A stretch of 64,000 nt of DNA from Porphyra umbilicalis. Taxonomy: Eukaryota > Rhodophyta > Bangiophyceae > Bangiales > Bangiaceae. The translations under genes and the position numbers were made by a program. Positions 22,239-33,757 of this stretch are shown here, piece after piece. The DNA lies in assembly GCA_002049455.2 (NCBI GenBank), contig KV919039.1, forward strand, positions 41,630-105,629. The letters run 5' to 3'. A model generated the notes under the pieces. The model made no database searches. It was not told where the DNA came from and saw only the letters and a program-made list of their open reading frames with translations. Each line of letters opens with the position of its first letter. Positions within the stretch are counted from its first letter, which is position 1.

Positions 22239-22243
22239 TCTAG
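22239..22243. repeat. Target-site duplication, left copy (TCTAG)
   Basis: TCTAG immediately before the 5' LTR is repeated exactly at 33753-33757 after the 3' LTR. A 5-bp duplication is standard for Ty3/gypsy integrases. Confidence 0.93.
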
Positions 22244-22902
22244 TGTGACGGTCCGTCACATGGCCCCCACACTCCGGGATCCAGATTCCTCGGAAATATG
22301 CCCCACTAACGCATATTTCAAATTGTTCCGTTGGCGATCCACTTGTGATCATCTCGTGGCTCACCAACCACAACCGCAATCCCAATACTTCCCTGGGATT
22401 CATAACCCCCTCGAGCGGGCCCCTACTTAATGGCCTAATTTTGTGTAAACCCCACTTGGATTATCGACTTATGTTACTTTGTGCCCCTGACTCCGGGGCG
22501 CCGCGAGGGTGTCACGTAGCACCCTTCCGCCCGCCTCTACTCAAGGCGGTATTCGAAGCTTCGGCCGTCCTCCGGGTTATGAGCCCAGTGGGCCCTGAGG
22601 AAAGGGCTTTCCGTGGGTCCTTTGAGGGTGTCTGAGGAGGGTTTTCCGAGGGTCCGAGGGAGACGGACGGGATAAGAGGGTGATGCGTGAGTGTCGCCTC
22701 GAGGCCTTCGACGCGGGCAAGTAAACTTCCGGTCACACAACTCGTGTTTGTCGCTCGGGGCGCCTTCCCCCGGTCGACGCCGTGCGTGTGTGCTCTTCGG
22801 GGTTTCCTTCCGGGGCGGGTATTCCCCGACAGGACTACCCGGCGACACGGTTTGGCTCGCCCTCCCCCCAACTGGGTGGGGTGGGCCGAGCGTGTTGTCA
22901 CA
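22244..22902 (+). repeat. 5' LTR
   Basis: 659 bp, starting TGTGACGG and ending GTTGTCACA, so TG..CA with short inverted ends. The first 17 bp (TGTGACGGTCCGTCACA) form a perfect palindrome around one T. The promoter and polyadenylation positions cannot be placed confidently. Confidence 0.95.
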
Positions 22903-22925
22903 TTTGGTGGAGCAGCAGGGGAGGA
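22903..22925 (+). other. Probable primer-binding region
   Basis: TTTGGTGGAGCAGCAGG directly follows the LTR. A TGG two bases inside is typical of primer-binding sites complementary to a tRNA 3' CCA. I cannot name the tRNA from memory. Self-priming, as in some chromoviruses, is not excluded. Confidence 0.5.
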
Positions 22926-23064
22926 AGGCAACTCAACCTTCCTCGGGGTGGTGGCGGTGCGCCAACCCGCCTCGGGGGGAACCTAGTCGGTCCTCCTTCC
23001 CTTGGTGCCTAGCGCTGCGGGCGGTGCCCCGCAACGCCAGGTTTGGCTGAGTCCGGCCGGGTCG

Positions 23065-25319
23065 ATGGCCGATGGGGGGGGGAACGAAGACCCCCCTGGT
23101 GTCGAGGTGCCTGGTGCCGGGGCGGATGAGATTACCCCCCCGGAGGCGGATCGTCGGTTGACGATCGCCACACCAGTGCCGGCACCACGGATGCGGGTGC
23201 CCGCGGGGCGCGGACTTTGTTCCAACCCTTGCCCCCGGGCCTCGATCCAACTGGGACTCGCCCCCCGGCAGGCGCCCCCTCGGGTAGTACTCACCCCGAG
23301 GCGGTCCTGTCGGGTGCTGGCACTCATTTCGGCGTAGGACAGCTGCCCGACGTTACTACGTGGGGCGGTGGGTCTGTGCCACCACCGGCACGGGAACCTG
23401 TGGGTGGGAGCTCTAGTCGTGCTCCCCCAGGTTCACGGAGTGCCAAGGGTGCCCCGGCGCTTGAGCACGGCGCCGGGACCCACGGTATCGGTCCCCCGGC
23501 CCTCGGGCCCGGTGGGAGATCCCCTCTCGGTGCTTGGGAGGGGGGGGCGATGCCAGGATCGGCACGGGAGCCTGCAGGCGGGAGCTCTGGTCGTGCTCCC
23601 CCAGGCTCACGGGGTGCCAGGGATGGCCCGGGTCTCGAGTGGCGAGACGCCGTGGCCGAGGTCGTTCGGTCCGAAGTTACCCGATCGCTAGTTACGATGT
23701 TGAGGGGCTCTACGCCCAGGCCCGCTGAGCGGCGGGGCCGAGCCCGACGCTCTGCTCGTCGGCGCCGACGCGACAACTCGTCGTCGTCGTCGACCACTGA
23801 CGTCTCCCGCTCGGGGGACGAGTCAGCAGTTGCGGCCCTACTTGGTGCTTTCCGTGCAACCCCCCCGCCGTCGACGGTGAGGGAGGGCACTCGAGGTATT
23901 GACTCGAGGGCCCAACCGACTCCTGACTCGGCGGAAGGTGTGCAAGGCGGGGGAGCGGCGCGAGAGTTACCCCGGGGTATTGACCCGGGGTTCCCGACGC
24001 ACTTCTCCTCCGCGACCGGTCCAGAGGCTGGGGGGTGGCCTACTCAAACCACCCCGACACCCCCAACTCGGGTGGTGCCGCCCAAGATTGTGGTGAACCA
24101 CCCGTACTACCGGGTGATGTTCGATTGTGAGACCTACGCGCTAGAAAACAAGTCGGTTGCCTACACGCGGCGCCAGGCCCGTACTATGGCCCGGCGCAAG
24201 AAGGAGGTGGCTCAGTCCTTCGGGGTGAACGACGAGTGGGATGGTTCCCCCCCAGTCAAGGTCTTCCAGGTCTTGCGCGAGTTTGCCAAGGCCTGTGACG
24301 ACAACAACCTCTCCGAAGGCGAAGCCTTCTACGTCCTTCAAGACTTAACGAAGGAACCTCTCAAGTCAGAGGTGATGATGGTTATGCCAACTCGCCGGGC
24401 GGGTAACCCCGGCGAGGTCACTTCATACTTGGAGCTCATCAACTGGATGATTCGGCGTCACGTCAACGAGGCCTCGGTGGCTACTCTAGTCGAGACCATG
24501 AACGTCGCGGTCCAACGGAACGACGAGGACGAGTTGTCCTTCGCCGAGCGCCTCCGCCGCCTCAACACCGAGTGCGGGTTCATGTACGGGGAGGGCGCCC
24601 TCAAGGGGCGCTTTGTGGAAGGTGTCCACCGCGCGGCGCGCGCCACGGTGCGCGAGCGCAACACCCCCGGCATGACTATGGCGGAGCTGGCTCGCGTCGC
24701 CCAGACTAAGGGCGACGAACACCGCTTGCTACGACTTGAGCAGCACAAGGAGCGGACCAAGGAGCGAGAAGCGCTCGCGGAGGAGGCCCGTCTCCGGCGG
24801 CAAGCTCGTGCGGCCGCCCTTCCCCGGATCACTGGGGGGACGCGGGGTTATCAACCACGGGACGCCCCTGTCCGGACCGTCGGGTCCGTGGGTGCCCCCA
24901 CTCCGGGCCCCCGGTACGATGGGTCCCGACCCAAGACTCCGGGCGGCTCGACTCCCGGGGGCCACGACAACTCGCGCTACCGCTCCCGACCGAGCGATGG
25001 GCCTTCCCGACCCAAGTCCCGGTCGGAAGAGTACCCTTGCTGGCAGTGTGGCAAGGTGGGCCCTTGGGCCGAGGTGTGCCCCGTCTTGGACGCACGCCTA
25101 CGCGACCGATTGGCCATAGCCAGTCGGTGGTCCCCTCTCGGGACGTCCTCGGGCTCCCGCGATACCCCGCGAGCGGGCCGGCGAGTAGCTGTTGCCACGC
25201 CCCACGAGGACTCCAGCTCAAGCGGCGAGGAGTCGACGCCGCTTGAGAATGGGGAACCGCAGACCGAGCCCGAGTGCGGACCCACCACCACCTCTGAGTC
25301 CGAGGAGAGAAACGAGTAA
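23065..25319 (+). CDS. gag: gag polyprotein, with a probable 1-nt frameshift near its start
   Basis: The main frame is open from 23130 to TAA 25317-25319 but has no ATG in its first ~140 codons. A frame starting at ATG 23065 (MADGGGNEDPP...) runs into it if one C has been lost from the run of seven Cs at 23135-23141. The N-terminal third is Pro/Gly/Ser-rich and contains an imperfect duplication (23389-23452 and 23569-23632, coding SRAPPGS-type repeats). A capsid-like helical domain follows (about 24090-24730, with FAERLRRLNTECGF and FVEGVHRAAR), matching Retrotrans_gag. Near the C-terminus is a zinc-knuckle-like CWQC...C at 25038-25079 in which the usual His is Pro (CCT 25062-25064), so zinc binding is doubtful. 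Gag would form the particle and bind RNA. Confidence 0.85.
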
Positions 25320-25476
25320 CCACCGGTGTTGGGCCCTCCCCGCGGCAACCGGTGGACCCAACCCGAGACGTGGATAAGATGCCAGTACGCATCCTATCCC
25401 GACCCAAGGGGATCCGCCCCCGGGACGCACCCCTCCCGAAGGGGGTAAGCGGCCAGAATGTGGTGGCCATCCGGAC

Positions 25477-26275
25477 CAGGGCCTGAGGTGGATAAAGTAG
25501 AGCCAGACATATCCGCACATTATACTCGTAATAATCCATAATCCATGCCGCAGCCGCGTATCCATATCGTACTCTGTTCATTTACCGCCGGATATACTGA
25601 GCCTGAATGACTCTCCAAAGGCCGGATATAATATAATCAGAATCGAATTTCCACCTTGCCTGATCCGGCTCACATATTGTGCGCCGCAGTGCTGGCGCGT
25701 GGGGATGCCTCCCCATCCTGTTCAACCGCCATCATCTGGCAGTGCCAAGCGGCGATCTTGACGGAAAATTCCCGAACGGTTCTGTCCTGTGTCTGAAACC
25801 GCCTGCCTTGCTGTCAACGGCGCGCGCGAGATTCCGAACGGGCACCCCCGGGTGAGCTCACGAGAGTTCCAACGATCACTACTGACGAGGACCGCTGCAC
25901 CACCCAAATCAATTCCAACAACCAAATGGTACTTGACGGCGGTTCATCGCGACAAACGCTTGTGAAGAGACACGCGTATTTAAATCACATGTAAGACTGT
26001 ACCTGGAGAGATGTCTCCTTTGATTTCATTTCGTTTCAATTCTAGTCTTCTTCCCGATCCATCATCCAAGAGAATATATTCAATCTGTCTATCCTAACAA
26101 TATCCAAAATCGTACGAATTGAATATCCGACTATAATATTGATCCTGACTCTGTCCGTCCCAGCAAGATCTGATTTTGAATATATGACATCGTCAAATAC
26201 TCAATCCAGAGTGCATGTGAGAGGATGTGGATTATATCCTAATGCAACCAAAAGTGCCAGATTCCAAAGCCCCTG
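25477..26275. mobile_element. hAT-like MITE nested in pol
   Basis: The left end begins CAGGGCCTGAGG; the right end on the minus strand begins CAGGGGCTTTGG (9 of 12 match). The flanks are ATCCGGAC (25469-25476) and ATCCTGAC (26276-26283), an 8-bp duplication with one difference. The 799-bp interior is much AT-richer than the retrotransposon and has no coding capacity. Removing the element plus one duplication leaves an uninterrupted pol frame leading into the protease, which confirms the boundaries. It inserted after the retrotransposon. Confidence 0.85.
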
Positions 26276-29200
26276 ATCCTGACGGGGTCCAGCTACCAGG
26301 TGGCCAGTCGCGTCTGGCTAGACGCGGGGCGGGAGCTAGCCCTCCGCGTCATAGTCGGCACGGGGTCGTGTGTCTCCCTAGTAAGGGAAGCCCTTCTCCC
26401 CCCGGAGATGGAGGTGGCGCCCTTAGACGCGGCGACCGCCCAGTTGTTTGACGTGAATGGGGGACTCCTCCCCATCACGGGCACCGTGACTCTTACGGTG
26501 CGAGTCGGCACTTACTCCACCTCAGTCACGTGTGGGGTAGTGCCGGGCATGTCGGTCCCCCTACTTCTAGGGACCGACTACACGGACGTCCATGTCCCCA
26601 ACATCTGCGGGCCCAAGGGGTACATCCGGTTACTAAACGGATGTAGGGTCCCCATCCTCCGTCGGGGTAAGACGGTGTCGTATGCCCGGGCGGACCAACC
26701 CCAGTCGGGGACCGCTAGTGAGGCGGACACCAAGGTGCACCTAGCACGCGAGGTGGTTATACCCCCGAGGTCCCGGGGATACGTCCCAGTACAGACGTCA
26801 TTCCAAGGGAATGGGGTCATCACCCAGCGCCATCGGGTGTATGAGCGCCACCGCGTGCATGTTGCAACTGGCACCATGGACTGCACCGCCAACCAGACGT
26901 GGTGGGTGGAGGTAACCCATACGGGGAACACGAGTAAGCGACTCCCCAAGGGCATGGTCATGGGGCATATGTCGGCCTACTCCGGTACGGTAGCCGCCAT
27001 ATCCCGGAAGGACTGGGCTGCACTCAGCCCCAGTCCGACCACCGCGCCCGACGCAACGAACCCCGTGGAGGAGCCCCACGTTCATACTTCGAACGTGCCC
27101 GAGGGGCTGCGGCCTCAAGTGCTCGCCCTACTGGAGAAGCACCGAGCCCTCTGGAGTGGGTACTTGGTCTCCATCAAGGCCACGGAGCACCGGATCGAGT
27201 TGAAGCCGGGCTCCAAGCCCGTCCGGCTCAACCCCTACCGGATGGGTCCCCGAACTAGGGAACTCATCAAGGCCCAAGTCGACCGAATGCTCAAGATCGA
27301 AGTTATAGAGCCCAGCCAGAGTGAATGGGCTAGCCCGGTGGTACTCATCCCGAAGCCCGATGCGAGTCCTCGGTTCTGCATCGACTATCGGCAGTTGAAC
27401 GAGCGCACAGTACGCGACTCGTATCCACTACCCCGGATGGACGACTGCCTCGACTCCTTAGGGGATGCACAGTTCTTCTCCACGTTGAACTGCAACGCGG
27501 GGTACTGGCAGATCCCCCTAGCCGAGGAGGATAAGCCGAAGACGGCATTCACTTGCCACTGCGGGACGTACCAGTGTACGCGTCTTCCGTTTGGCCTGTG
27601 CAATGCCCCTGCCTTTTTCCAGCGGGCTATTGACATGATCCTATCCGGAGTCAAGTGGCAGAATGTGCTCGTCTACTTAGACGACCTCATCATCTTCTCC
27701 GCCGATGCCGAGTCGCACCTGTCCCACTTGGACACGGTGCTCACCTTACTCGGGAGGCACGGGTTCACACTCAAGGCTCAGAAGTGCCACCTCTTTACTA
27801 ATGAGGTGGAGTACCTTGGCCATGTAGTACGGCCAGGACGTTTGAGTGTTAACGAGAAGAACCTCAAGGCCATCAAGAAGGCCAGCTTCCCCCAGACCCA
27901 AACCCAACTTAGGAGTTTCCTGGGGATGTGCAATGTCTACCGTCGGTTCACGGTAGACTTCGCTAAGACCGCGAAGCCGCTGAACAACTTGAACAGCGTA
28001 AAGCTTCCGAAGCGGTTGAGTCCCCCTACTCCGGAGGAACAGAACGCGTTCGACAAACTACGCGAACAGCTATGCCACCCGCCCATCCTTGCGATACCGC
28101 GCAAGGAGGGGAAGAACATCATCGATGTGGACGCTAGCTACGACCAGCTAGGGTGCTGCCTACTACAGCAGCAACCCGATGGCAAGTACCTGCCCGCAGG
28201 CTACTTCAGTAAGGGCCTACTACCGGCGGAGAAAAACTACACCGTCACCGAGATTGAGGGACTAGGTGTGGTGTGGGCGGTCGGTTTACTACGACCGTAC
28301 ATCGAAGGCACCAAGTTCCTCATCCGGTGTGACCACAAGGCACTGAAGTGGATACTAACCACGACGGCCTGCACCAACAATCGACTCAATCGTTGGCGCA
28401 TCCTCCTCTCGGAGTTCGACTATGATGTGGAGTACAAGCCCGGCCCCCAACATGCGGTGGCCGACGCTCTGTCCCGCATCCCGACTGAGAGGCTGGACAC
28501 GGGACCCATCTCCCAGGAGATCCCCACAGTCGGGGTGACCACTCGATCGGGGGCGGTACTCGACCCCCGACTCCCCGAGAACAGGGAAACTGCCCGCATA
28601 CCCCTGGGCGAACTAGTCCAGAAGCAGGCGACAGACGAGTTCTGTCAGGGGGTCAAGAAGTTACTTGACACCCCCACTCCCACGCGCTTCTACGAGAACG
28701 CAGACGGGTTGTTGTGCCGTCGCGGACACCGCGAGGGGACCCAGCAGGTACTGGTCCCCCAGTCCCTAGTCAAGGACGTATTACGGGCGGAGCACTCCTC
28801 CCCCTTGGCTGCGCATCCAGGTGGGACGCGCATGTACCAGACCCTGCGGGACCAATACTACTGGCCCTCGCTGGCGATGGATGTTTTCGGGTGGGTGGCA
28901 GCTTGCCCCACCTGTGCTAAGAACCGGCTCATGGGTACGCAGAGTAAAGCGTTCATGAGGTTGTTCCCCGCGACGGAACCCTTCGCAGCGCTGGCCATTG
29001 ACTTACTTGGCCCCCTGCCCAGGACCCCCGAAGGATATGAGTATATCCTAGTTATTTGTGACCGATTTACTAAGGTCACTCGGGCGGTCCCGCTTCGAGA
29101 CATCACGGCTCTGGATGTTCTCAGCGCATTCCTCGACACGTGGGTTGCTAGCTATGGGATCCCCGATTCAGTTCTATCGGATAACGGACCCCAATTTGCT

Positions 29201-29874
29201 GCCGTACTCTGGCAAGGGGTGCTCAAGACCCTGGGTATTGACACTAACTATGCCACCCCTTACCACCCACAAACTAATGGGCAGGTCGAACGGTTTAATA
29301 ATACCTTAGTGAAGCAACTACGCCACTACCTAAGTGACCACGTAGTTACGTGGTCCCGATACTTAAGCCTGGTAGTAACGGCTTACAATTCGCAAGTGCA
29401 TAGTAGCACCGGGCAGATCCCCTTTGCGTTCGTAAGCCCCCGACGGCTTACTCCCGTGGCCCTCGAGCGACTTACAGCGGGTACCGACACCGGGGAGATA
29501 GTAACCCCCGGGCGAGCCAAGGAGAATTTCCTCCAGCGCCTTGACTCCCTTATCCCCCTAGTACGGGAGACCATGGAGAAGGCACAGGCCCGGTAGAAAC
29601 GAGCATTCGTTAAGCGCGTGCAGACTCGCCGCGAAGCGCTCCAAGTCGGAGACTGGGTATTCGTGAACTCCCACGAGAACCAGGGGGGTAAGCTCGTCTT
29701 CAAGACACTGGGACCCTACCAGATCTTGAAGACAGACGGGCGTCGGCTTACCATCGAAAGTGACGATGGTATCCGGACCATCAATGGGAACCACGCCACC
29801 CGGGCCGCAGAACCACCCGAGGGGGACCCGGCGTGGGCGCGGGCACTGGCCGCGTGGCGGGTCCCGTCCCTCCC

Positions 29875-30060
29875 CTCATCGGCCAGTAAACCGATTGAGG
29901 CTGTCTTCGACCGCTTTGTCGGACAGGGGTACGATGACCAAGAGCGACTCATGCTCAAGGTCAGGTGGTTCGGGTATGGACCCCGGGAGGACTCCTGGCA
30001 CTATGTGGAGGACCTCCCGGCTGAGAAGGTCCGCCAGCACTGTGTGCGGCACCGGCTCAC
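29875..30060 (+). other. Chromodomain at the C-terminus of pol
   Basis: Beyond the TAG at 29594, the same frame encodes an integrase tail with VGDWVFV and a GPYQI motif, then a segment with IEAVFDRFV, LKVRWFGYG, EDSWHYVEDL and a closing amphipathic helix. This matches the chromodomain fold, including the aromatic cage positions, and defines chromoviruses. In related elements the domain steers integration to methylated-histone chromatin. Here it would be made only by stop readthrough or by a repaired copy. Confidence 0.85.
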
Positions 30061-30216
30061 AATGAGAGGAAGGGTATAAAACAACTAACAACCCCCAGTA
30101 CGGGGTACCCCTCGCACACACCCCCGACATTAGATCCAACCCAACTGGGGACAAGCCCACCGGGGGCCGGGTCGCGCCTCACTGAGCGCCCCGGCGCCCC
30201 ACTCAAGCCTGGGTAC

Positions 30217-32491
30217 CTACTCCCTACCCGGCGAGTGCGGGCGGTCGTCGCGGACGTACCCCCCAAACTGGTCGTAACCCGAATGGTCCGGGTACTCCTG
30301 GGCCGACCCCCGGTCCGAGGGGCCCGGCCCCCACGACGAGCGCGGCACCCTACTCGGTGCCGCCCCCGCCTCGGAGTACCCCCCACCAGTGGAGGGGTAG
30401 CCGCCCCCATGGTAGGGCGCGGCTGAGCCCGCAGGCTCCCCGGCATACGGGACCCGACTGGGGCCCCCGCCCGCCGAAGTCCCGGCGGGCCCAGCCGCCA
30501 CCCGCTGGCCATGCCCCTCCAAGCGGGAGGCCATCTGGTACCCGATGGCCTCTGGGGTGGTGTCCACCAGGAACTGCGCGGCTGCGGCAGACCGGGGGGA
30601 CGAGGAGTCCGGCAGTACGGACCCCGCCGCCCGGGTGACCCACGCCAGGGTGTCCACCAGGGAGGCAACTATCGCCTCCCCATGGGCCACCCTCAGCGCC
30701 CCCGCCGCACTTGGGTAGGTGGTTGCCAAGGCGTGGGCGCACCGCGGGGTGACGTACCCCCAGCTGAGGCTCTGCCCCGCCCCAAGAGGCGGGTAGTACG
30801 GCACCCCCGGCGGGGCGAACGTCGGACGGCCCGACCGCCCAGCGGGGGATGCCCCCGCCCGGGTGGTCCGCCGGACAGCGCCCCCACGAGCAGGGGGGCG
30901 CTCGGCAGTACCTCGGGTACGCTTGCGCTGCTGGGGGGCACTGGCCCCCGGTGCACCCCAACCCGAGTTCGGTGGGGGCGACGTCGCCGTTACCCCCGCC
31001 GAGTAGGGGTAGGCCAGGTCACCCAGGCCCTCACGGAGGCCTATGCGCCCGGCCACCAGGTGTGTGTCACAGTGGACAAACGCCCGAGGCGCCTCGCCCT
31101 CCTCCCCGCCAACTCGGCGGGCCAGGTAGGGCCCGGCCGCCTCCCAGTCCAAGGACTGGTGAAGGTCCAGCAACTCGCTGAGGTAGGCGTGCGCGTCCGG
31201 GCCGGCCCCCTCCGCCACGTTGGCGAGGCGGAGTCCCACCAGACGTCCCACTATGGCGGCTGGCAGGTGCCAGAGGTACCCCTTAGTCCGGGCGGAGGCA
31301 TACCACACCTCCACTACCTCCAGCACCCACTGATTAGCGAGGATGGCCGCCGCCGGGGTAAACTCCCCCCGGCGGAGCGCAGTGCCAAAGTAGGTCACTA
31401 TGCGCGGCATCCGGGCCGGGAACCCGAAGGGCACCTCCATGGCCGACCACCAGGACGGCTTCGGGACGTAGTATGCCCGCCGCGTCGAGGTGTGGACCTG
31501 AGAACTCTCCACTTGAGAGGCCCGCACCAGGATGCCCGACGCGTCCCGCACCCGGCGTTCGGTGCGGGTGTCCTGGTGGTGGAAGTGGGGGTCCGTCTCC
31601 CCCAAGTACGGGGGGGAGCAACACGCCCACTCCCACGCCACGACGGGCGGCACGTCGTCGGCGGTGGCCTCGTCCATAACATTGGACAGGCGCGCGGCCA
31701 CGCGCTCCACCCACGGCGCGTCCCCCGCCTCCTGTAGGGCGGGGAGGTCCGTGGCCACCCCGGCAGGCAGTTCGTACTGCACGGGGTTGCGCGCCAGCCA
31801 GCGGACTGGGGGCAGCCGGGGGCGTCCACTGAACCAACGCCCCCGGCTCCGCAAGCCCCGCCTCCCCCACTGCCGGTAGGCGCTCCCGGCGCGGCACCGG
31901 CGGGGGGGACTCCTGCTCCATGGGATCATCCCCCGCCTCGCCCGGCTCCGCTGCCGCCGCCGGGGGAGTGGACGGCCGGCTGGGCGGCAGCGGCACGCGC
32001 GCCGCCACCGCGCGGGACCCGACCGCGTCCTCCCCGGCCGACCGCGCCGGCGCACTTGACGCGCGGGAGGCCGACGCCGACCCCGCCGACGACTTGGACC
32101 GGCGGGGGGGAGGCGGCGGTTGGGTTGCTTGACTCCCCGCCGCCGACGACTCCCGGCTCGGGGGCGCGGCGTTGGCCTGGCGCGCCCAGCGGGCTGCCTT
32201 GCGCCGGGACGCCGCCACGGCCGCGCCACTTGACTTGGTGGCGCCGGGAAGCGTGGCAGTTGCCGACGCCGCCGCCCCGCCAAGCCGCGGGGTGGCCGCC
32301 GTCGAGGCCTTGGCCTTGGGGGCGCCCATACTCCCCGGCGCCCCCCCCACCCGCGGGGACCCCGCGGCAGGGCTGCCCGACTTGGCCGTGGCCGACGCCG
32401 GCGTCCCACTCGGCGCCGGCGTGGCGCGCCCCGCACTTGGGGAAGCCATCTCCTCGGTCGGCGCCACTGCAGTCGACCGCGAGGAGGCCAT
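30217..32491 (-). CDS. Antisense ORF in the 3' region of the chromovirus, ~758 codons with one frameshift
   Basis: A minus-strand protein is read from ATG at 32491. The first ~220 codons are Ser/Ala/Pro-rich (MASSRSTAVAPTEEM...) and lie in one frame. Near 31,820-31,840, in a C-rich run, sense continues in the next frame to TAG at 30217-30219. The central part (about 31,800-31,000) looks like a folded domain rich in Trp, Tyr and His, for example DPHFHHQDTRTERRVRD, YYVPKPSWWSAMEVPFGF and ANQWVLEVVEVWYASA. The C-terminus is Gly/Pro/Ser/Tyr-rich. I do not recognise the domain. Antisense ORFs at this position are known in some plant gypsy elements, where their role is unclear. The plus strand over the same interval has only low-complexity frames. 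Confidence 0.6.
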
Positions 32492-33080
32492 AGCACCGCG
32501 CCCGAGTAAGGGGGGGCGGCGAGGGGGAGGGGGGTGCCCCGCGCGGCGAGGAACGCGGGGGGAGGCTCTCAACTTGAGTAGCGGTGGAGGGGGGGACGGT
32601 GACGGTCGGCAGTGGACGGCGTCCCCGTCTAACCCCCGCCTACCCCCTTTTTATGAGCCCCTGTGTGGGGACAGGGGCCCTTACCCCGGGTCCCCTCAGC
32701 CCCACCCCGCGGGCCACTCCCCCTGGACGACTCCCCACGGGGGGGGGCCGCGCGACAGCCCCCCAGCTGAGGGAGGCGGGCGGATGCCATACTGGGCACC
32801 CGCCCCCCTGTTGGCCCGCCGGGCACGGTTAGCGGGCCCGCGCCGGACACGCGGCAGCACCCCTGGCTCCCGCGGCCGTGTCCACCATACGGCAACGGCG
32901 CGTACCCCCTTGCCCCGGCGGGGGGCGCCCCCACGATCCGGGGCCGCCATCGCTGGCGAGGACCGGGGCAGCACCCGGGCCCCACACTGGGGAGCCCGGG
33001 GGCTAGCTGTCCTGGCCCGCCCGCCCCACTCGGGCGGGCCCGCCCCTCCTGGCTCTGGGCCGCCGGGACGGCGACCCCTT

Positions 33081-33093
33081 TAGAAGGCGGAAT
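33081..33093 (+). other. Probable polypurine tract
   Basis: TAGAAGGCGGAAT immediately precedes the 3' LTR and is mostly purine. This is the expected position of the plus-strand primer, though the tract is short and interrupted. Confidence 0.45.
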
Positions 33094-33752
33094 TGTGACG
33101 GTCCGTCACATGGCCCCCACACTCCGGGATCCAGATTCCTCGGAAATATGCCCCACTAACGCATATTTCAAATTGTTCCGTTGGCGATCCACTTGTGATC
33201 ATCTCGTGGCTCACCAACCACAACCGCAATCCCAATACTTCCCTGGGATTCATAACCCCCTCGAGCGGGCCCCTACTTAATGGCCTAATTTTGTGTAAAC
33301 CCCACTTGGATTATCGACTTATGTTACTTTGTGCCCCTGACTCCGGGGCGCCGCGAGGGTGTCACGTAGCACCCTTCCCCCCGCCTCTACTCAAGGCGGT
33401 ATTCGAAGCTTCGGCCGTCCTCCGGGTTATGAGCCCAGTGGGCCCTGAGGAAAGGGCTTTCCGTGGGTCCTTTGAGGGTGTCTGAGGAGGGTTTTCCGAG
33501 GGTCCGAGGGAGACGGACGGGATAAGAGGGTGAGGCGTGAGTGTCGCCTCGAGGCCTTCGACGCGGGCAAGTAAACTTCCGGTCACACAACTCGTGTTTG
33601 TCGCTCGGGGCGCCTTCCCCCGGTCGACGCCGTGCGTGTGTGCTCTTCGGGGTTTCCTTCCGGGGCGGGTATTCCCCGACAGGACTACCCGGCGACACGG
33701 TTTGGCTCGCCCTCCCCCCAACTGGGTGGGGTGGGCTGAGCGTGTTGTCACA
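33094..33752 (+). repeat. 3' LTR
   Basis: 659 bp, aligned end to end with the 5' LTR with three substitutions seen. It is followed by the second TCTAG. Confidence 0.95.
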
Positions 33753-33757
33753 TCTAG
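33753..33757. repeat. Target-site duplication, right copy (TCTAG)
   Basis: Exact match to 22239-22243. It marks the end of the retrotransposon. Confidence 0.93.

Follow-up and report, generated by a model that had tools for sequence, protein, structure and literature searches.

An antisense gene under purifying selection between pol and the 3' LTR of a Ty3/gypsy retrotransposon in Porphyra umbilicalis

Results

A Ty3/gypsy element with an antisense gene

We analysed a 64,000-nucleotide stretch of Porphyra umbilicalis DNA (hereafter the window; contig KV919039.1), in which a complete LTR element spans positions 22244–33752 and encloses a gene on the strand opposite to gag and pol (Table 1). 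Two LTRs bounded by a target-site duplication and the order reverse transcriptase, RNase H, integrase place the element among the Ty3/gypsy LTR retrotransposons. Its pol matched the Pfam families RVT_1 (E 7.2e-34), RT_RNaseH (2.6e-27), Integrase_H2C2 (2.9e-16) and rve (6.2e-11), and the best solved relative of pol is Ty3 Gag-Pol (E 5.7e-115). The gag-like ORF includes a stretch, CWQCGKVGPWAEVC, that we take by eye to be zinc-knuckle-like, with Pro where His is usual. Nine further ORFs of the window had no Pfam match.

Table 1. Features of the element in the window copy (positions are those of the window)
Feature	Position	Strand	Basis or remark
Target-site duplication TCTAG, left	22239..22243	.	
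5' LTR (TGTGACGG...TTGTCACA)	22244..22902	+	Local alignment with the 3' LTR
gag-like ORF	23217..25319	+	ORF list; no Pfam match
pol: reverse transcriptase, RNase H, integrase	26300..29596	+	Pfam; terminated by a premature stop in the window copy
pol C-terminal end, severed from pol in the window copy	29618..30079	+	Chromodomain-like segment
Antisense gene, C-terminal part in the true frame, from the middle region through the basic linker and C-terminal region to the Gly-rich tail and stop	30217..31803	-	
Site of 71-bp deletion in the window copy	31803..31804	.	Copy alignment
Antisense gene, N-terminal Ser/Ala/Pro-rich part in the true frame, from its ATG at 32491	31804..32491	-	
Candidate core promoter for the antisense gene, a conserved A/T run (CATAAAAAG)	32636..32661	-	Inference
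3' LTR	33094..33752	+	Local alignment with the 5' LTR
Target-site duplication TCTAG, right	33753..33757	.	

A first-pass annotation, made from the letters of the window, had called this element a young chromovirus. A young age of the insertion is supported by LTRs that differ at 3 of 659 bp (the local alignment covers 660 bp with 3 mismatches, its final base lying past the CA end), but the copy is no longer intact, with a premature stop in pol and a frameshift in the antisense gene. The severed end of pol contains what we take to be a GPY-like motif and a segment, LKVRWFGYGPREDSWHYVEDL, that we presume by eye to be chromodomain-like. The label of chromovirus has as its single source a Pfam Chromo match to this end, which at 15.0 bits (E 0.024) falls short of the curated cut-off of 25.1. 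Because chromodomain-bearing Ty3/gypsy elements that are not chromoviruses are described in excerpts of published work (Chronos, PMC5348765; Ectocarpus, PMC12477816), we treat this assignment as tentative.

Two further properties of the element merit mention. First, the near-identity of its LTRs stands beside a premature pol stop and a frameshifted antisense gene, and in at least one other copy (L002) pol reads through the position of that stop; defective copies may be mobilised in trans. Second, the interval between gag and pol (25320–26299), nearly 1 kb, has a GC content of 0.51, compared with 0.67 for gag and 0.59 for pol, and contains no frame resembling gag or pol, so that a nested insertion may be present here. 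After it comes VGTGS, which we take to be a protease-like motif, the usual form presumably being D-T/S-G.

The window copy of the antisense gene is broken

The first-pass annotation had reported a minus-strand ORF of about 758 codons between pol and the 3' LTR. A long open stretch does lie there, but it is made of two frames. The distance from 32491 to 30217 is 2275 bp (3 x 758 + 1), which is not a multiple of 3; the Ser/Ala-rich head, read from its ATG, closes at 385 codons, and the middle and Gly-rich tail lie in another frame. The mechanically called ORF of 759 amino acids (30217–32496, minus strand, GTG start) reads the head in a different, Arg/Pro-rich frame. Head and tail are out of register because 71 bp are missing from the window copy, whereas all of the other copies aligned (39 of 39) have this stretch, one of them with a 1-base gap inside. 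We rejected the idea that these 71 bp are an intron, as they keep the antisense frame open in intact copies and, among the 40 rows aligned, only the window lacks them. The earlier description thus concerns the right protein, seen in a broken copy. The plus strand, which it had called only low complexity, also has a 408-codon frame from 30511 to 31737 in the window, but in the three copies with an intact antisense frame each plus frame has 5–18 stops.

We searched the assembly (83.8 Mb, 665 contigs) and fetched 47 other copies, 39 at first and 8 later, leaving out one further copy (contig C67, 20797). Because the antisense stretch itself was the query that located all of them, finding it there does not count as independent evidence. 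In three of the 47 (L012 and L019, 781 amino acids; L043, 786 amino acids) the frame runs unbroken between the homologous ATG and the homologous stop; it is not kept whole in the remaining 44. L043 shares 82–86% DNA identity with the window and 77% protein identity with L019. In 36 of the 39 copies fetched first, the alignment extends into the end of pol, and the gene can be traced to about 78% DNA identity between copies. An ORF antisense to gag-pol, in the interval between pol and the 3' LTR, is kept across copies.

Composition and searches of the predicted protein

Taking L019 as reference, residues 1–190 are 28% Ala, 17% Ser and 15% Pro, which agrees with the Ser/Ala-rich head noted earlier in the frame that starts at ATG 32491. 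A middle rich in Trp, Tyr and His had also been proposed; residues 191–515 do hold 12 of the 15 Trp and 10 of the 17 His, but only 9 of the 23 Tyr. A basic segment follows at 541–568, residues 600–695 are 22% Ala, and residues 696–781 are 22% Gly with 7 Tyr among 86 residues, bearing out the Gly/Tyr-rich tail. Codon composition over residues 280–520 is coding-like, with GC at the three positions of 0.73, 0.53 and 0.87. The gene in L019 has a GC content of 0.75, and 0.85 at third positions, compared with 0.59 and 0.72 for pol, an excess that may point to a separate origin.

The libraries searched returned no relative. The three intact proteins matched no Pfam family at E <= 1, L019 had no match in NCBIfam, and neither L019 nor L043 had one in PHROGs. 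A sequence search of the PDB with L019 gave a single match (E 0.052), which fell in the low-complexity head and which we judged to be chance, and a profile of residues 195–695 found nothing there up to E 10. Two short peptide patterns run against viral contigs gave 70 pattern matches, none of them a relative. Two AlphaFold2 runs reached mean pLDDT values of 30 and 34, which are not interpretable as a fold.

Two familiar identities could be discarded. The protein is not a duplicate of gag, its best match to the element's own gag having an E of 0.76, and it is not an Env-like third ORF, as it is encoded in antisense and L019 has no membrane-type segment (top 19-residue hydropathy 1.36). The same observations, with the absence of a CCHC motif from L019, weigh against the broader alternative of a structural or Env/Gag-like accessory protein that serves the particle, packaging or movement and is no nuclear regulator. 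A low-complexity head, a more conserved middle and a Gly-rich tail would suit a nucleic-acid-binding structural protein too, and we consider this alternative unlikely while still worth weighing.

Purifying selection on the antisense frame

The first-pass annotation had suggested that this lineage has its own accessory protein, and proposed a dN/dS comparison across copies. That comparison, now made, supports the suggestion. In pairs of the three intact copies dN/dS was 0.45–0.50 in the ORF frame and 1.1–1.4 in the two other minus frames. Plus frame 1 gave nearly the same signal as the ORF (0.50–0.54 in the three intact pairs; nonsynonymous to synonymous ratio, N/S, of 1.53 for shared and 2.82 for single variants in the 37-row analysis described below) because the two have the third codon position in common; plus-strand coding is rejected solely by the 17–18 stops that this plus frame carries in the three intact copies.

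We then separated singletons from variants common to at least three rows, counting variants in exactly two copies in neither class. Singletons would mostly have arisen after insertion, and variants in at least three copies would mostly derive from replication of the family. In the 48 rows formed by the window and its 47 relatives (all alleles, all rows; at least 30 usable rows per site), shared variants fell at codon positions 1, 2 and 3 with counts of 140/129/259 and comprised 248 synonymous changes, 273 nonsynonymous changes and 2 stops (2 of 523; N/S 1.11). Singletons were flat over codon positions (543/570/611), with 490 synonymous changes, 1048 nonsynonymous changes and 40 stops (40 of 1578; N/S 2.22). 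The contrast between the classes is significant (Fisher p = 2e-11; stops alone, p = 9e-4), and, read in the two remaining minus frames, shared variants include 28 and 21 stops. A 37-row analysis limited to two-allele sites (at least 25 usable rows) gave N/S of 1.39 for shared variants and 2.74 for singletons (p = 5e-4), with stops alone not significant (p = 0.49). Partial copies L028, L039 and L042 were left out of this analysis, as well as of the all-pairs dN/dS, indel, density and private-change analyses, in the last three of which the minimum was likewise 25 rows.

The constraint is unevenly spread. Relative N/S was 0.50 over the whole ORF, and 0.70, 0.56, 0.37 and 0.30 for residues 1–190, 190–300, 300–400 and 400–515, followed by 0.54 for 515–600, 0.46 for 600–695 and 0.61 for 695–781. 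The 3' end of pol served as a positive control, with 17 rows (the window and 16 copies that reach pol, three of them only partly, the remaining such loci being the same copies again; at least 8 usable rows per site). It gave a relative N/S of 0.12, compared with 0.43 for the antisense ORF in the matching copies and L019, so constraint on the antisense ORF is real and weaker than that on pol. Indels relative to L019 follow the same pattern: both of those common to at least three copies are multiples of 3, as against 5 of the singletons, 53 of which are not (p = 0.012); of the three found in exactly two copies, one is a multiple of 3.

Long open frames come easily in DNA of about 75% GC, and the chance opening of a frame on the complement of GC-rich sequence had to be considered. 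First-order Markov simulations of the region gave a median longest stop-free run of 301 codons over six frames; runs of at least 781 codons appeared in 1 of 2000 simulations, and of at least 758 in 2 of 2000. The comparison of copies, with its contrasts in codon position and N/S, is stronger evidence than this simulation, and together they lead us to reject a chance ORF, the probability of which we regard as negligible. We conclude that the antisense frame encodes a protein that has been under purifying selection during replication of the element, most strongly at residues 300–515 and 600–695, and that this is almost certainly a real antisense protein gene.

The selection data also bear on two other accounts. 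One holds that the antisense transcript itself is functional as non-coding RNA, pairing with genomic RNA and feeding small-RNA silencing or copy-number control, with the frame incidental. Excerpts of PMC7264820 discuss siRNA-type control and non-coding antisense transcripts made by retrotransposons, and the failure of 44 of 47 copies to keep the frame whole would fit. Under this account one would expect neither an excess at third positions, nor a scarcity of shared stops, nor a lower N/S among shared than among private variants, yet all three were observed, as were indels in multiples of 3 common to at least three copies, and we find it very improbable. The other sees a host gene passively captured as cargo. 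The GC excess over pol and the lack of a relative in the libraries searched speak for such a capture, but adjacency to the end of pol, spread down to about 78% identity and purifying selection during replication argue together that this is no recent idle capture, leaving it a rather improbable reading.

The upstream region and a candidate promoter

On the minus strand, a TATA-like CATAAAAAGG lies about 160 bp before the ATG within a conserved 20-bp block. The 20-bp segment at 32636 ranks 19th of 582 for conservation in the upstream region (38 rows, with L028 and L042 left out). The full A/T run is present in 27 of 40 rows and is shorter in L043, an intact copy, and two other blocks, one near 32705 and one near 32961, exceed the TATA-like one in conservation. 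With so modest a footprint, the block is a promoter candidate only. We lean somewhat towards an antisense promoter of the gene's own.

The density of shared variants is 11–18 per 100 bp in the ORF and 17 at the end of pol, rising to 31 in each of the two nearest non-coding stretches, one running from pol to the stop of the ORF and the other covering 308 bp directly upstream of the ATG (32492–32800). In the next 294 bp before the 3' LTR (32800–33094), which are non-coding, it is 15.1; density alone is therefore no proof of coding, as this block is conserved as much as the ORF. The block may hold cis signals, either for the antisense promoter or for replication.

Discussion

Our results reveal a retrotransposon family of Porphyra in which a gene opposite to gag-pol has been maintained by selection. 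Several plant elements, namely Grande (gene23), RIRE2, Retand and PvRetro13, are described as carrying an antisense ORF in the interval from pol to the 3' LTR; in the excerpts available of PMC7264820 and PMC11963269 the function of these ORFs is called unknown and a DNA-binding or regulatory role is proposed. The same excerpts give a nuclear location for the protein of Grande and an antisense promoter upstream of its gene, and they describe Retand as a non-chromovirus confined to Eudicotyledons and Liliopsida, 97% of whose clusters encode TRP28 (PF04195). Like these plant Ty3/gypsy ORFs, so far as those excerpts describe them, the Porphyra gene is antisense to gag-pol, sits between pol and the 3' LTR and recurs across family copies. 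Unlike Retand, its intact proteins lack TRP28, or any Pfam family at the threshold used, and the end of pol gives a sub-threshold chromodomain match.

Outside plants, Boty, a gypsy element of the fungus Botrytis, carries an antisense gene, brtn, likewise placed between pol and the 3' LTR (cited in excerpts of PMC7264820 and PMC8365987), and resembles our element in having such a gene in a non-plant gypsy background, a likeness to brtn by description. The segment after integrase, if it is a chromodomain, would be a feature in common with chromoviruses and with Chronos. As described in part of its report, Chronos is an oomycete element with dual RNase H, unlike ours, which has one RNase H region (577–706) before the next domain at 819 (Pfam, E <= 0.1, window copy); the word 'antisense' occurs 0 times in the available main text of the Chronos paper (PMC5348765). 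Our literature search found no oomycete or Phytophthora case of such an antisense gene, and titles and the starts of abstracts otherwise gave no matching element. We file the Porphyra gene as a variant within the known structural class of ORFs that lie in antisense in the interval from pol to the 3' LTR, not assigned to a named family.

What might the product do? We read it as a trans-acting accessory protein, probably nuclear, akin to the antisense products of Retand/Grande and Boty but lacking TRP28. The gene would be transcribed from its own promoter within the roughly 600 bp that separate the ATG from the 3' LTR, which would yield an antisense mRNA separate from the genomic RNA. The product would start with a disordered head rich in Ser, Ala and Pro, continue with a middle region and a basic linker that could serve as a nuclear localisation signal, and end in an Ala-rich C-terminal region and a Gly-rich tail. 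In the nucleus it would act, in trans, on the RNA, DNA or chromatin of the element and so regulate expression or replication. As an explanation of the whole, we favour, by some way short of certainty, a true third gene on the strand opposite to gag-pol, located before the 3' LTR and next to pol, whose product acts in trans in the nucleus. Nuclear action has as its basis composition, namely the basic segment, and analogy with Grande and Retand; the narrower proposal that the protein regulates the element's cycle from the nucleus is a tentative one, which we hold as a possibility.

Action in trans is suggested by copies with few private changes that have broken versions of the gene. Over 3188 sites, L009, L023 and L010 have 0, 2 and 6 private changes and the window copy 23, and the frame is broken in all four, so that an intact gene in cis seems unneeded for a copy to spread. 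Against this, intact L012 also has few (11), compared with 34 in L019 and 121 in L043. A similar pattern could also result from errors of sequencing in GC runs, or from variants shared with a sister copy, which lower singleton counts.

A bolder version of the nuclear, trans-acting reading would make this protein the founder of a new regulator family. It would be a large nuclear protein of two regions with no relation to TRP28, and its gene would have a promoter of its own and belong to a Ty3 lineage with a chromodomain. Acting in trans, it would serve its own copy as well as defective relatives, perhaps through opposition to silencing by the host or through a limit on copy number. We think it unlikely in this full form.

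Our findings have several implications. First, a single genome suffices to separate private variants, mostly post-insertion, from shared variants, mostly those of replicating copies, and the contrast between them indicates that the antisense product has been useful to the element. Second, residues 300–515 and 600–695 are singled out for testing. Finally, should the element prove not to be closely related to those of plants, an antisense accessory gene would have been gained convergently, with a different protein.
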